From: Clostridia bacterium
GTDB taxonomy: Bacteria; Bacillota; Clostridia; Oscillospirales; Acutalibacteraceae
DNA: 64,000 bases
Direction of reading: 5' to 3'
Assembly: GCA_017517665.1 (NCBI GenBank)
Contig: JAFWYP010000001.1
Coordinates: 173,577-237,576, forward strand
Positions 24,419 to 27,444 of this stretch are shown here, piece after piece; positions within the stretch are counted from its first letter, which is position 1, and each line of letters opens with the position of its first letter. Under the pieces are notes generated by a model. It did no database searches, was not told where the DNA came from, and saw only the letters and a program-made list of their open reading frames with translations. The position numbers and the translations under genes are program-made.

Positions 24419-25090
24419 TCATAAACAGTAAACTCCCGAACGCATAACGGCATATTCAACGTCTTTAACTCTGAAATATTTTGAAACGGGTTCATTGAAA
24501 ATGCAGTAATCTGCAACATTATAGTTATTGAAATCAATGGTTCTGATTTTATAGGAGTTTGCGTTGCAGATAAACAGTTTATTATCGTAAACTGAAACAT
24601 CAACAGGATGGAAAAATGCCTTTTCCTTGGGGCTTCCAATGCGGAATTCGATTCTGTCATGCTTTACGGAATAGTTGATAATCGCGTTTGAATCGGGAAC
24701 GGCAAACCATAAATCCATGCCGTTTGCGGCGGGCGAGCAAGCGGGATTTCCGAGATATTCAACCTTGTTTTCTCCGGTTATTTCTCCGTTGCCGTCAACG
24801 ATTCTCAATGTGCCGTCGGAATAAGAAGCGGCTATGGTATTACCTGCAAGATTTATGATATTGCAGGTAACAAAATCCCCGAGTGCGCGCGCAATTACAG
24901 CACCGTTTTCACCGAGCTTTGCATTTATGTAAGTCAGTACGGGTATTTTTTCAAATATATCAATTTCTTGATTGTATATATAAAAAGCAACTGCGTCCTC
25001 GCCTTCGGGAGACTTTTCTCTGCAGGCATAAACGAAGCCTCTTTCAACGGGTATTATATCAAGCAAATCAGCGTTAAAAAGCTTCTGCAC
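24419..25090 (-). CDS. Beta-propeller-like protein of unknown function
   Basis: 223 residues from GTG 25090, 8 nt after GGAGG. It shows repeated short beta-strand units (SYSDGTLRIVDGNGEI, DVSVYDNKLFICNANS, DLWFAVPDSNAIINYS), resembling WD40/NHL-type blades, but it is short for a complete propeller. There is no signal peptide or membrane segment. No catalytic motif is visible. It has its own terminator. The region upstream of its start contains the hairpin repeats described separately. Confidence 0.5.
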   Translation of the reverse strand: MQKLFNADLLDIIPVERGFVYACREKSPEGEDAVAFYIYNQEIDIFEKIPVLTYINAKLGENGAVIARALGDFVTCNIINLAGNTIAASYSDGTLRIVDGNGEITGENKVEYLGNPACSPAANGMDLWFAVPDSNAIINYSVKHDRIEFRIGSPKEKAFFHPVDVSVYDNKLFICNANSYKIRTIDFNNYNVADYCIFNEPVSKYFRVKDVEYAVMRSGVYCL

Positions 25091-25160
25091 CTCTGATTCC
25101 TCCGGGTATATTCTGAATTGTATTTTTACATAAATATCCCCGCCAAGCCGAATGCAGCCG

Positions 25161-25270
25161 ATTGTAACCTGCTCTTATAGCAGGTGGGTGCCGCCCAATG
25201 CTTTCACGCTCCCTTCGTCCGCTTTAAAAAGCGGGAGGTCTGCAATCCGCCATCGGAGCAAGGCTCCCTA
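25161..25270. repeat. Cluster of perfect palindromes
   Basis: Three perfect inverted repeats in about 110 nt: ACCTGCT/AGCAGGT (25167-25173 with 25179-25185), CCGCTTT/AAAGCGG (25219-25225 with 25228-25234, extended by CTCCC/GGGAG outside) and GGAGC/GCTCC (25255-25259 with 25263-25267, 3-nt loop). Two short open frames overlap it but neither has a plausible start or product. It precedes the regular hairpin array. Confidence 0.6.
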
Positions 25271-25330
25271 TTATTGTGTGTTGGGTTACATATTGACTGC
25301 AAATTACCGCACAAGGCAGGGTGTTTATAT

Positions 25331-25427
25331 TTTTGCTTTGCAAAAGTGAAATATGCCTTCGGCATGTAAATTTTTGTGTTACAAAATGAAATCCAGACGT
25401 TGTCTGAGTGAAATTCGCTTTCGGCGA
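25331..25427. repeat. Array of five triloop hairpins with a conserved GTGAAAT-type linker, about 21-nt period
   Basis: Stems: TTTTGC/GCAAAA (25331-25345), ATGCC/GGCAT (25353-25365), TTTTGT/ACAAAA (25372-25386), CAGAC/GTCTG (25394-25406) and TCGCT/GGCGA (25415-25427). Each has a 3-nt loop of TTT, TTC or GTT. Linkers read GTGAAAT, GTAAATT, TGAAAT and AGTGAAAT. Loop centres are spaced 21, 20, 21 and 21 nt. Stem sequences differ while pairing is kept. The array ends 12 nt from the stop codon of the DUF1292 gene, so it lies in that gene's 3' region on the minus strand. Confidence 0.85.
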
Positions 25428-25439
25428 GTGGGAATTATA

Positions 25440-25739
25440 TTATTCTTCTTCAAAGTCAAACATTTCGGAAAGTCTTTCTTCAAATGCCTGACCTACTTCG
25501 TTGAATTCTTCGTCATCTTCGATGGGGCAAAGATATGTTTCGTCTTTTTCTTCCATAACCTTGAGAATGATGAGTTCGTTATCGTCTTCGGTTATTTTGT
25601 CGGGAGTTTCGGGAAGGGGAAGAAGAGCAACGTATCTGCCTTTATCGGTTTCGATTCTGTCAAGTTCTTCAAAAATATGCTCTTTTCCGTCCTCGTCAAC
25701 TATGCTTACTATATCGGGTGTGTATTCTTCGTTATTCAT
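25440..25739 (-). CDS. DUF1292 family protein
   Basis: 99 residues, very acidic. The pattern IVSIVDEDGKEHIFEELDRIETDKGRYVAL is typical of DUF1292 (YrzB-like) proteins, small conserved Firmicute proteins of unknown function. In many Firmicutes relatives lie near ruvX/alaS-type genes; none of those is in this window. It has its own minus-strand promoter and no strong terminator other than the hairpin array just downstream. Confidence 0.85.
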   Translation of the reverse strand: MNNEEYTPDIVSIVDEDGKEHIFEELDRIETDKGRYVALLPLPETPDKITEDDNELIILKVMEEKDETYLCPIEDDEEFNEVGQAFEERLSEMFDFEEE

Positions 25740-25771
25740 TGAAACTATGTCCTTTCTGTTTCATTGTCTAT

Positions 25772-25800
25772 ATTTTAACCTCATTTGCGGCTTTAGTCAA
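25772..25800 (-). promoter_or_regulatory. Promoter of the DUF1292 gene
   Basis: On the minus strand, TTGACT (25800-25795), a 17-nt spacer and TAAAAT (25777-25772), about 33 nt from the start codon. Confidence 0.6.
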
Positions 25801-25859
25801 TAGGAAATAACGATAAGTGAAAAATATATAAAAGTTATCAACTTTTTATGAAAATTATA

Positions 25860-25888
25860 TTGACAACTGCCAAAAAATGTGCTATATT
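25860..25888 (+). promoter_or_regulatory. Strong promoter of the candidate structured RNA
   Basis: Perfect TTGACA (25860-25865), a 17-nt spacer and TATATT (25883-25888). Transcription should start near 25895. No protein gene begins within the next 400 nt. Confidence 0.75.
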
Positions 25889-25894
25889 ATAGGC

Positions 25895-26296
25895 GAGGAA
25901 AGAAACAAGAGAAAATCAAAAAAGGCTTGAATTCCCCGAAGAATTTTTAGTGAATTAATGTGAAAATGCATGGAATTCAGATGCTTTTATCTCTTGGAAT
26001 CCCTCTTGACCATATATTGTAAGTCACAGGTCAAAAAATTGTCAAAGTGAATAATAGAAAGGCGGCGATACCCGATGTACCTTGCAGAACATCAGCTCGC
26101 AGCCGTTGAATCCGACAGATGATTTAAGCAGTTTTTGAAAGCAGAATCAGATTGAATAAATTGATTTTTTCTGCAAAGAGCTTGTCAAACTGCAATTAAA
26201 GCAAATTATGCATATGATTGTCGGCAAGCGGCTGTGGGCGGAAAAGTAAAATTGAATATGAAATAGAGCGACCGTACCGTGTGGTGCGGTCTTTTT
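25895..26296 (+). ncRNA. Candidate structured non-coding RNA, about 400 nt, family not recognised
   Basis: The stretch from a strong promoter to a strong terminator contains no open frame longer than about 15 codons but many nested pairings. They are TTGAATTCC/GGAATTCAG (25927-25935 with 25972-25980), TTGACC/GGTCAA (26006-26011 with 26029-26034) and GGCGGC/GCCGTT (26061-26066 with 26102-26107) enclosing GATGT/ACATC (26074-26078 with 26089-26093). CCGACA/TGTCGG (26112-26117 with 26219-26224) encloses GCAGTTT/AAACTGC (26128-26134 with 26187-26193), which encloses GCAGAA/TTCTGC (26141-26146 with 26169-26174). I saw no RNase P, tmRNA, SRP or T-box signature. A 15-codon frame at 26075-26122 is a possible leader peptide. 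Confidence 0.6.
26270..26296 (+). terminator. Rho-independent terminator of the candidate RNA
   Basis: GACCGTACC (26270-26278) pairs with GGTGCGGTC (26283-26291) with one G-U pair and a 4-nt loop, then TTTTT. Confidence 0.9.
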
Positions 26297-26299
26297 GTG

Positions 26300-26327
26300 T
26301 TGACAAACGCTCAGGAATATTTATAAT
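26300..26327 (+). promoter_or_regulatory. Consensus promoter of the CE15-like esterase gene
   Basis: Perfect TTGACA (26300-26305) and TATAAT (26322-26327) with a 16-nt spacer, starting 4 nt after the terminator T-run. So the esterase is transcribed separately from the RNA upstream. Confidence 0.8.
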
Positions 26328-26349
26328 CTAACTATGGAGTGTGATACTA

Positions 26350-27444
26350 ATGTTAGCAGATATAAAAGAAAAGCTTGAAAAACTCGCTGTTCCTTCGGCG
26401 CTTGAATTTTGCGGAAAAAGGGCGGAAACCGTTGAAGAATGGGAAAATATCGTTCGTCCCCAAGTTGAAAAAGCAATGCTTGAATGTGAATACGGCTATC
26501 TTCCCGAAGCACCCGAATCGGTTGAATTTGAAATTAAAAATATTGATGACAGATTTTGTGCGGGTAAGGCTGTTCATATTGAACTTGCAATTTCGTGCAT
26601 CGTTTACGGCGAAAAATTTACATTCCCCGTGAATTATGTTTATCCGTCAAATACCCGTAATCTCAAAGCCTTTGTACATATAAATTTCAGACCCCATATG
26701 CCGGATAAATATATGCCGTCGGAGGAAATTGCCGATAACGGTTTTGCCTGTGCATCTTTCTGCTATCAGGATGTCACGAGTGATGACAGCGATTTCACAA
26801 ACGGTCTTGCAGGCTTGATATATAAGGATTCGGAACGCTCGGAAACATCGCCGGGTAAGATTGCCATGTGGGCATGGGCGGCGATGAGAGTTATGGATTT
26901 TCTTCAGACAAGAGATGAAATTGACAAAGAAAATATCTGTGTCTGCGGACATTCAAGACTCGGAAAAACGGCACTTTTAACAGGTGCGCTTGACAAACGT
27001 TTTGCTGTTGTACACACAAATTGTTCGGGCTGCAGCGGCGATTCTTTAAACAGAGGTAAGCATCCGAAAAGTGAAAAAATCGGTGATATTCTTGACAGAT
27101 TTGAATTCTGGTTTTGCAAGAATTATGAGAATTTCAGAGATAAGGATAATGAAACTCCGTTTGAACAGCATTTTCTTCATGCTCTGATTGCACCGCGAAG
27201 GGTTCATATCGCTTCTGCGGAAAACGATATCTGGGCAGGTCCAGAAAGTCAGTTTCTCTGCACTGCGGCGGCATCGGAGGTTTATGAGCTTTACGGTAAA
27301 AAAGGCTTTGTTTACGGCGACGGAGATTTTCTGAATCCCGATAAATATCTCAATGACGGAAATTTAGGCTTCTGCTATCGCAGAGGAAACCACTATTTCA
27401 GCCGTGATGACTGGCACGGTCTGTTTGATTTCATGAACAAGTAA
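26350..27444 (+). CDS. CE15-like esterase (glucuronoyl-esterase family)
   Basis: 364 residues from ATG 26350 (GGAG 10 nt upstream); a GTG at 26341 is only 1 nt from that site. The CE15 nucleophile motif appears as GHSRLGK with Ser202 (family form GxSRxGK). IASAENDIWAGPESQ and the histidine segment GNHYFSRDDW complete the expected site. CE15 enzymes cleave ester bonds between lignin and glucuronoyl groups of xylan. No signal peptide is seen, whereas many CE15 enzymes are secreted, so this one probably acts inside the cell on imported fragments. Confidence 0.75.
   Translation: MLADIKEKLEKLAVPSALEFCGKRAETVEEWENIVRPQVEKAMLECEYGYLPEAPESVEFEIKNIDDRFCAGKAVHIELAISCIVYGEKFTFPVNYVYPSNTRNLKAFVHINFRPHMPDKYMPSEEIADNGFACASFCYQDVTSDDSDFTNGLAGLIYKDSERSETSPGKIAMWAWAAMRVMDFLQTRDEIDKENICVCGHSRLGKTALLTGALDKRFAVVHTNCSGCSGDSLNRGKHPKSEKIGDILDRFEFWFCKNYENFRDKDNETPFEQHFLHALIAPRRVHIASAENDIWAGPESQFLCTAAASEVYELYGKKGFVYGDGDFLNPDKYLNDGNLGFCYRRGNHYFSRDDWHGLFDFMNK

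Follow-up and report, generated by a model that had tools for sequence, protein, structure and literature searches.

A stand-alone structured RNA gene of Clostridia with an internal reading frame of fixed size, and its possible engagement with ribosomes

The transcription unit and its neighbours

The window analyzed here is a stretch of 64,000 nucleotides from a Clostridia bacterium of the family Acutalibacteraceae (contig JAFWYP010000001.1). On its forward strand we found a promoter, TTGACA-17-TATATT (25860-25888, +), which matches the consensus at 11 of 12 positions and has a TG preceding the −10 element. The putative transcript extends from an inferred start at 25895 (GAGGAAAG), deduced from the position of the −10 element and similar to the 5′ ends of the homologs, to the last T of the terminator run at 26296 (+). 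The terminator is a 9-bp stem-loop (GACCGTACC/GGTGCGGTC) followed by TTTTT (26270-26291, +), and 3′ of it lies the promoter of the next gene, TTGACA-16-TATAAT, with 12 of 12 consensus positions (26300-26327, +). A preliminary description of this DNA had proposed a unit of about 400 nt bounded by a perfect −35 and a near-perfect −10 element with 17-nt spacing and by a 9-bp terminator with TTTTT, and followed by a gene with its own consensus promoter, and each of these elements is indeed there. Scanning positions 25000-26500 returned nine promoter-like sites, compared with a mean of 3.3 in shuffled sequences, and eight terminator-like sites, compared with 1.5. The folding energy of 25896-26300 is −105.9 kcal/mol (z −2.46), a value as low as this being reached by two of 100 shuffles.

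The RNA gene is divergent from a gene for a DUF1292 protein, and in the same neighbourhood we identified a 6S RNA gene (RF00013, 54.5 bits, E 4.5e-8) at 25133-25325 (−), between DUF1292 and an unassigned gene. A gene for a 223-aa protein without a Pfam match (24419-25090, −) adjoins the 6S gene and is found near DUF1292 in loci of the genus. Between the RNA and recJ there is a glucuronyl-esterase-like gene (PF22244; 26341-27444, +), which is present in three of the 18 strong loci described below.

When searched against Rfam 15, the candidate RNA stretch gave no family above its gathering threshold, in agreement with the earlier suggestion of an undescribed family, and the relatives of the RNA that we scanned had no Rfam family match either. 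Sub-threshold matches to SNORD65, SNORA25, CbSR4, and rliH in a relaxed scan (E 0.11-3.7) were taken as chance. It had also been suggested that this could be a divergent 6S-type RNA. That idea was abandoned, as RF00013 is unmatched in the stretch and the true 6S gene, which scores above the gathering threshold, sits outside it at 25133-25325 (−). The candidate resembles 6S RNA in being stand-alone, in having its own promoter and a similar size class, and in the location of its gene, but it does not match the 6S model and the window holds a separate 6S gene. RNase P RNA was rejected in the same way (its model is unmatched in the stretch and RF00010 has a match elsewhere in the genome, G000:C60), as was tmRNA, for which neither RF00023 nor ARAGORN gave a match in the stretch, ARAGORN found none over the window, and a true tmRNA lies elsewhere (G000:C44). 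Among the matches listed in the open-licence literature, none describes such an RNA. These results support the conclusion that the RNA belongs to a new family, unlisted in Rfam 15.

Homologs, helices and a short frame of fixed size

A blastn search of 60 genomes matched 24, in several cases over a short length. Sixteen aligned blastn loci have in common the promoter, a 5′ end that reads GAGGAAAGG, or GAGCTAAGG in the case of one locus, and a core around AAAGGCGGYGAU..CCGAUGUAC. A model of 105 positions, R1, was built from 14 of these 16 loci (L006 and L007 were left out) and, at E<=0.01, found a match in 26 of the 45 genomes of the genus. After reading the matches we kept 25 homologs, 18 strong ones at E<=2.4e-19 and seven weaker ones (L050-L054, L056, and L057), and set aside L055 and L058, a second match in G024, as chance. 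The 20 genus genomes in which no RNA copy was recognized may owe this to incompleteness, loss, or divergence; our evidence comes from genome sequence throughout, with metagenome assemblies as the source of the named relatives. A promoter is found upstream of all 25 homologs when a loose pattern is used and of 19 of the 25 with a stricter one. DUF1292 adjoins the RNA gene in 17 of the 18 strong loci and also in L050; the exception, L043, lies on a contig that extends only 472 nt upstream of the match, and in the six other homologs DUF1292 was absent from the fetched stretch. What follows the RNA in the 18 strong loci is recJ in nine, an esterase gene in three, and neither within the fetched stretch in six, and in four of the six homologs lacking this synteny (L051, L053, L054, and L056) a long frame on the opposite strand lies downstream. 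Because promoters recur, because the helices show two-sided changes (see below), and because the downstream gene varies, the proposal of a stand-alone RNA with its own promoter and terminator is borne out. We regard both the existence of this RNA and its structure as well supported, while any function is proposed from sequence.

The structure begins with helix P0, whose 5′ strand (25895-25898 and 25906-25912, +) pairs with 25990-25996 and 26002-26005 (+) and whose outer part hardly varies. Next to it lies the putative hairpin P1 (26006-26034, +), in which TTGACC (26006-26011) would pair with GGTCAA (26029-26034); it is nearly invariant. Helix P2 joins 26095-26107 (+) to 26227-26239 (+) and encloses P2b, CCGACA (26112-26117, +) with TGTCGG (26219-26224, +), as well as the less well supported P3 (26128-26134 with 26187-26193, +), which in turn surrounds P4 (26148-26151 with 26170-26173, +). 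The 3′ side of P2 is followed by a tail, AAAATTGAATAT (26248-26259, +), that is similar across homologs, although the rows were cut at this tail by a pattern that includes its variants, which partly accounts for its being present in every one of them. Three nested pairs, CCGACA/TGTCGG, GCAGTTT/AAACTGC, and GCAGAA/TTCTGC, had been noticed before and are present in the sequence, whereas P0 at the 5′ end and P2, the strongest helix, had been missed.

We assessed these helices on alignments of the homologs, with structures drawn on the sequence of the window, which favours them. In 25 sequences the 11 pairs of P2 are formed in 97.1% of cells, and six of them show two-sided changes, compared with 1.3 in shuffles; none of 500 shuffles and no slid register scored as high, and the number of pair types was matched by one shuffle in 500. 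Duplexes between the two P2 strands of the same RNA average −35.9 kcal/mol, against −29.5 kcal/mol when strands are swapped between RNAs, a difference reached in none of 5000 permutations. The same comparison gave −13.3 against −10.5 kcal/mol for P0 (0/5000), whose inner strand, misplaced by MAFFT in the 14-sequence alignment, was judged by this test alone. Nearly no P0 duplex was found in L054, L056, and L057, where both strands fell within one sequence window; by eye, these three have other 5′ hairpins. Further counts were made in an alignment of 14 of the 18 strong loci (L042, L043, L044, and L049 were left out). There, P2b has two-sided changes in five of six pairs, P3 (GCAGTTT/AAACTGC) in two of seven, with 78.3% of cells paired, and CAGA/TCTG, the register counted in place of the overlapping GCAGAA/TTCTGC, in one of four, with 92.9% of cells paired. 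Taken as a whole, the structure of 40 pairs is formed in 92.8% of cells of these 14 of 18 subtype-I RNAs, with two-sided changes in nine pairs and 25 cells, compared with 4.5 and 6.3 in shuffles (0/500 for each); the number of pair types was matched by 26 of 500 shuffles.

The unit had been described as having no convincing open reading frame, and this part of the description does not hold. A frame of 15 codons plus stop, ORF1 (MYLAEHQLAAVESDR; 26075-26122, +), is preceded by a Shine-Dalgarno (SD) region of its own, AAAGGCGGCGAT (26058-26069, +), whose predicted pairing with the 3′ end of 16S rRNA has an energy of −10.8 kcal/mol. In all 25 homologs the frame has 11-16 codons (mean 14.8, sd 1.0), while the other two frames average 28.3 (sd 16.0) and 12.5 (sd 8.4) codons. 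The start codon is ATG in 24 homologs and TTG in one, a conservation that is partly by construction, because the pattern used to locate the frame includes the start (an alternative pattern in the case of L057); the stop positions lie outside that pattern. The 5′ strand of P2 falls within ORF1, and its element CGCAG, or a variant of it, is found at +24 in 24 of the 25 homologs and at +25 in one, the +24 of L052 having been read by hand. We saw no sign of selection on the peptide in the 18 subtype-I ORFs, whose codon positions differ 632, 592, and 521 times, without an excess at the third. A motif M[YF]xA...LAA recurs among the genus peptides, and its kept LAA falls on the P2 strand. Since the length of the frame and its spacing to P2 are fixed and the peptide drifts, it is the limits and geometry that are kept, not the peptide. 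A conserved reading frame had been held to speak against an RNA. A frame of 48 nt is indeed kept in its boundaries and position, but it bears no sign of peptide selection, so we read it as part of the design of the RNA. The preliminary observation was partly confirmed, and its interpretation is partly supported.

The 5′ strand of P2 has a second possible partner. Positions 26097-26104 can pair with the SD region in an alternative hairpin (26061-26063 and 26065-26068 with 26097-26100 and 26102-26104, +), so P2 and this SD-hiding hairpin are mutually exclusive. The hairpin is formed in 95.4% of cells without any two-sided change, and its own duplexes average −14.1 kcal/mol, against −13.2 kcal/mol for swapped strands (1/5000 permutations). 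Just 5′ of the terminator there is also an AUG AAA UAG (26258-26266, +), without a good SD and missing in some homologs; it is possible, on weak grounds, that this is a remnant of the start-X-stop element that characterizes the wider family described next.

Presumed relatives beyond the genus

To look further afield, we scanned one genome per species (84,980 species) for the core pattern and obtained 26 exact matches. Seventeen are copies of the genus, which carry the label Clostridia or Oscillospiraceae and come mainly from the guts of herbivores; eight are chance matches in coding DNA, and one, L098, is a more distant copy, to which both DUF1292 (tblastn 1.3e-22) and 6S are adjacent. After the RNA promoter of L098 (reverse strand, about 900-2800) we observed some 2 kb without a long frame, reaching to a ruvC-like gene (identified by eye) and containing further GTGAGTCC-type motifs; this is an unusually long version of the unit. 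Motifs of the GTGATTCC type with short frames are also present in the genus copies L051-L054, L056, and L057, which links them to the wider family.

DUF1292 was present in 41 of 45 genomes of the family, and we fetched 29 of the 40 other DUF1292 loci. In 14 of these 29, each from a different genus, we recognized by eye a promoter that points away from DUF1292 and, after it, a stretch that looks like a transcript and bears an SD motif; in L124 a protein gene occupies the position of the RNA. These units carry repeated GUGAGUCC motifs, often followed by a start codon, one further codon, and a stop (start-X-stop). We counted motifs in 13 of the 14 RNAs, which a simple script delimited and which total 8,836 nt. 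Their RNA strand has 17 occurrences of GTGAGTCC and their antisense strand none; the remainder of these loci, 67,952 nt over both strands, has none either. A wider form of the motif has 24 copies in the 13 RNAs and three in the remainder of the loci. A start codon follows 14 copies of the wider motif, in nine of the 13 RNAs. Four of these copies head frames of 16-30 codons and ten head tiny ones, eight of which are exactly start-X-stop; L143 alone contributes five of the ten tiny frames and four of the eight. In eight of the 24 wider-motif copies AAG or AAA replaces AUG, so the motif may serve more than initiation. The hypothesis that such startless copies encode a conserved peptide in another frame (ESKxQF...) was rejected by eye, as several of them stop after four codons. 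Counting all SD-led starts gave 166, against 41 on the antisense strand, a comparison in which the purine-rich RNA inflates the SD counts. Frames of exactly 15 codons are found in L132, L137, L144, L146, L156, and L157, and those of other members have 8-30 codons; no longer frame was found in L133, L143, and L162. Several of the family ORFs have a Glu near positions 4-5. A 6S RNA was found in ten of the 12 family DUF1292 loci scanned and, among eight further loci scanned, beside L156 and L163, the latter having DUF1292 as well.

When run over 31 loci, R1 gave seven hits at E<=1, six of which lie within the RNA region on the right strand: L098 (1.4e-7), L120 (0.0074), L132 (0.012), L143 (0.19), L128 (0.23), and L149 (0.29). 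The loci L098 and L120 had been chosen by the core pattern, the other four had not, and the seventh hit, L126 (0.79), does not lie within the RNA region on the right strand. Thus four of the 14 family loci have a weak R1 hit, and the other ten are tied to the RNA by position, layout, and motif.

Pattern searches were run alongside reversed controls. The start-X-stop pattern had ten places in nine of 120 family genomes, compared with one for the control, and seven of the ten read as RNA loci (L153-L158 and L162, L154 being the same locus as L148). Two more of the ten, L159 (at 1500) and L160 (reverse strand, at 349), are doubtful, being single copies of GTGAGTCC-AUG-X-stop in non-coding DNA of two family genomes, and the last, L161, sits in open frames. 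For the core pattern we obtained seven places against five in the control in 300 family genomes, and five against ten in 394 genomes of the order; of 12 places outside the genus, 11 (including L109) read as chance and L120 was kept as a possible cousin, which may also be chance, because beyond the genus the pattern is at the background level of the reversed control. The L120 unit (reverse strand, about 1450-2260) stands after a uvrB-like gene (by eye) and consists of a consensus promoter, an SD, AUG UUC UAA, and about 700 nt up to a terminator-like hairpin. The startless motif, with one mismatch allowed, had three places in two of 295 order genomes against two in the control, and L163 and L164 were kept because of their surroundings, not the match count. 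In L164 (about 1400-1850), from another family of the order, three tandem units each contain an SD, a frame of 14-32 codons, and a startless motif. With ten candidates scored per genome, the only strong R1 match in 394 order genomes was the RNA's own copy, and when read, none of the five other matches stood out from chance. Further candidates were dropped as chance (L065, L067, L071, L073, L083, L085, L087, L088, L094, L100, L102, and L104), and phage, plasmid, and viral collections yielded no copy of the RNA at the sensitivities used.

A possible role in sensing translation

Several known systems share part of this layout. The RNA resembles tmRNA (RF00023) in its length of about 400 nt, its short internal frame, and an LAA in the encoded peptide, but its ORF has an SD and an AUG. 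Small ORFs are also found in dual-function sRNAs such as SgrS/SgrT, RNAIII, and SR1, which are likewise stand-alone. Here, in contrast, it is the length and geometry of the ORF that are kept and not the peptide, and the presumed relatives have repeated start-X-stop frames. The raiA motif RNA, ModT, is not known to have a 15-codon ORF or start-X-stop frames. What that RNA has in common with ours is that it is a stand-alone structured RNA of Bacillota, where it is widespread (PMC11706538), and it differs in that no Rfam hit is obtained here. It is the architecture of the RNA that we regard as new; if the genus RNA alone stands, then it is a new RNA family of an ordinary kind.

The reading we prefer is that of a stand-alone structured regulatory RNA, of a family outside Rfam, that would bind ribosomes and respond to the state of translation, a tentative proposal for which we see the balance falling just short of even. 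It builds on a recurring promoter, on P0, P2, and P2b being kept by compensatory change, and on an SD-led ORF of about 15 codons. According to this proposal, 30S subunits would bind the strong SD of ORF1. The leading edge of an initiating ribosome usually lies at about +16, and P2 starts at +21, about 20 nt past the A of the AUG, which is just beyond that footprint, so initiation and P2 can coexist. Translating ORF1, on the other hand, would have to open P2 and P2b, and the P2 5′ strand could instead hide the SD. The RNA would thereby switch its fold according to the initiation and elongation of ribosomes on it, and may then act in trans, with the ribosome or some other molecule as its partner.

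Of the competing explanations, the one that survives best, though we consider it rather unlikely, is a plain structured RNA acting in trans, in which a protein or another RNA would bind the SD-like motif and the short frames would have no significance of their own. The helices with compensatory changes fit it, as do the motif copies in which AUG is replaced by AAG or AAA. It does not account for ORF1 stops that fall within 11-16 codons in every one of the 25 homologs, with the other frames varying, nor for the eight of ten tiny frames that end after exactly two codons. A particular form of it, a sponge for CsrA of the CsrB type, is made unlikely by the distribution of CsrA (PF02599), which was found in none of ten carrier genomes and in three of 14 controls. 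An mRNA that encodes a micro-peptide of some 15 residues and has a structured UTR would explain why SD, start, and stop are kept and why M[YF]xA...LAA recurs in the genus, and the Glu that several family ORFs have around positions 4-5 points the same way. We nevertheless regard it as improbable, in view of the absence of a third-codon-position excess, the coincidence of the kept LAA with a P2 strand, the very different peptides across the family (five of which were tested and had no NCBIfam model match), and the roughly 350 nt of structured RNA that it leaves unexplained.

A further explanation is that the unit controls the gene after it, recJ or another, as its attenuator or leader. Alternative pairings, a short ORF, and a terminator make up the layout of translation-coupled attenuators, the window RNA has all three, and recJ is downstream in half of the strong loci. 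Leader peptides are also a feature of erm-type translational attenuators. Those attenuators and the odc1 uORF motif (PMC8632094) share with our RNA a short ORF of fixed length with structure around its SD, but the unit in the window ends in a terminator and we saw no regulated downstream gene; in addition, the odc1 uORF peptide is described in that source as conserved, unlike that of ORF1 (PMC8632094). A cis-acting attenuator is disfavoured, and to our mind very unlikely, because what follows the unit varies among the strong loci, a long frame of the opposite strand follows it in four of the six non-syntenic ones, and in the window the next gene has a full-consensus promoter past the terminator. 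Finally, decayed protein-coding repeats or pseudogene remnants, which the three similar tandem units of L164 with their frames of 14-32 codons might bring to mind, are hardly credible given the recurring promoter, the compensatory changes, the fixed geometry of the ORF, and the five peptides without an NCBIfam match.

Returning to an RNA that responds to translation, its extension to the whole family would be bolder. The presumed relatives have additional SD motifs ahead of start-X-stop frames, and ribosomes would bind at such frames while making nearly no peptide. Strong SDs leading into a 15-codon frame that abuts a helix, and into start-one codon-stop minigenes, could together define non-coding RNAs that capture ribosomes, binding and cycling them without making protein, as a sensor of the state of translation or as a ribosome reservoir. 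We consider this possible but somewhat unlikely; the RNA of the window lacks both GTGAGTCC and a tandem array of start-X-stop frames, so this boldest reading rests on the presumed relatives.

A tiny, strictly sized frame within a folded RNA suggests an RNA that may work through engagement of the ribosome and not through a protein. 6S RNA binds RNA polymerase, and if our proposal is true, the gene of that RNA would have near it the gene of a regulatory RNA whose partner is the initiating ribosome. It would also offer a natural and testable case of start-X-stop minigenes as parts of an RNA, and would add a new RNA gene to the annotation of gut Clostridia, in which this stretch passes for intergenic DNA.
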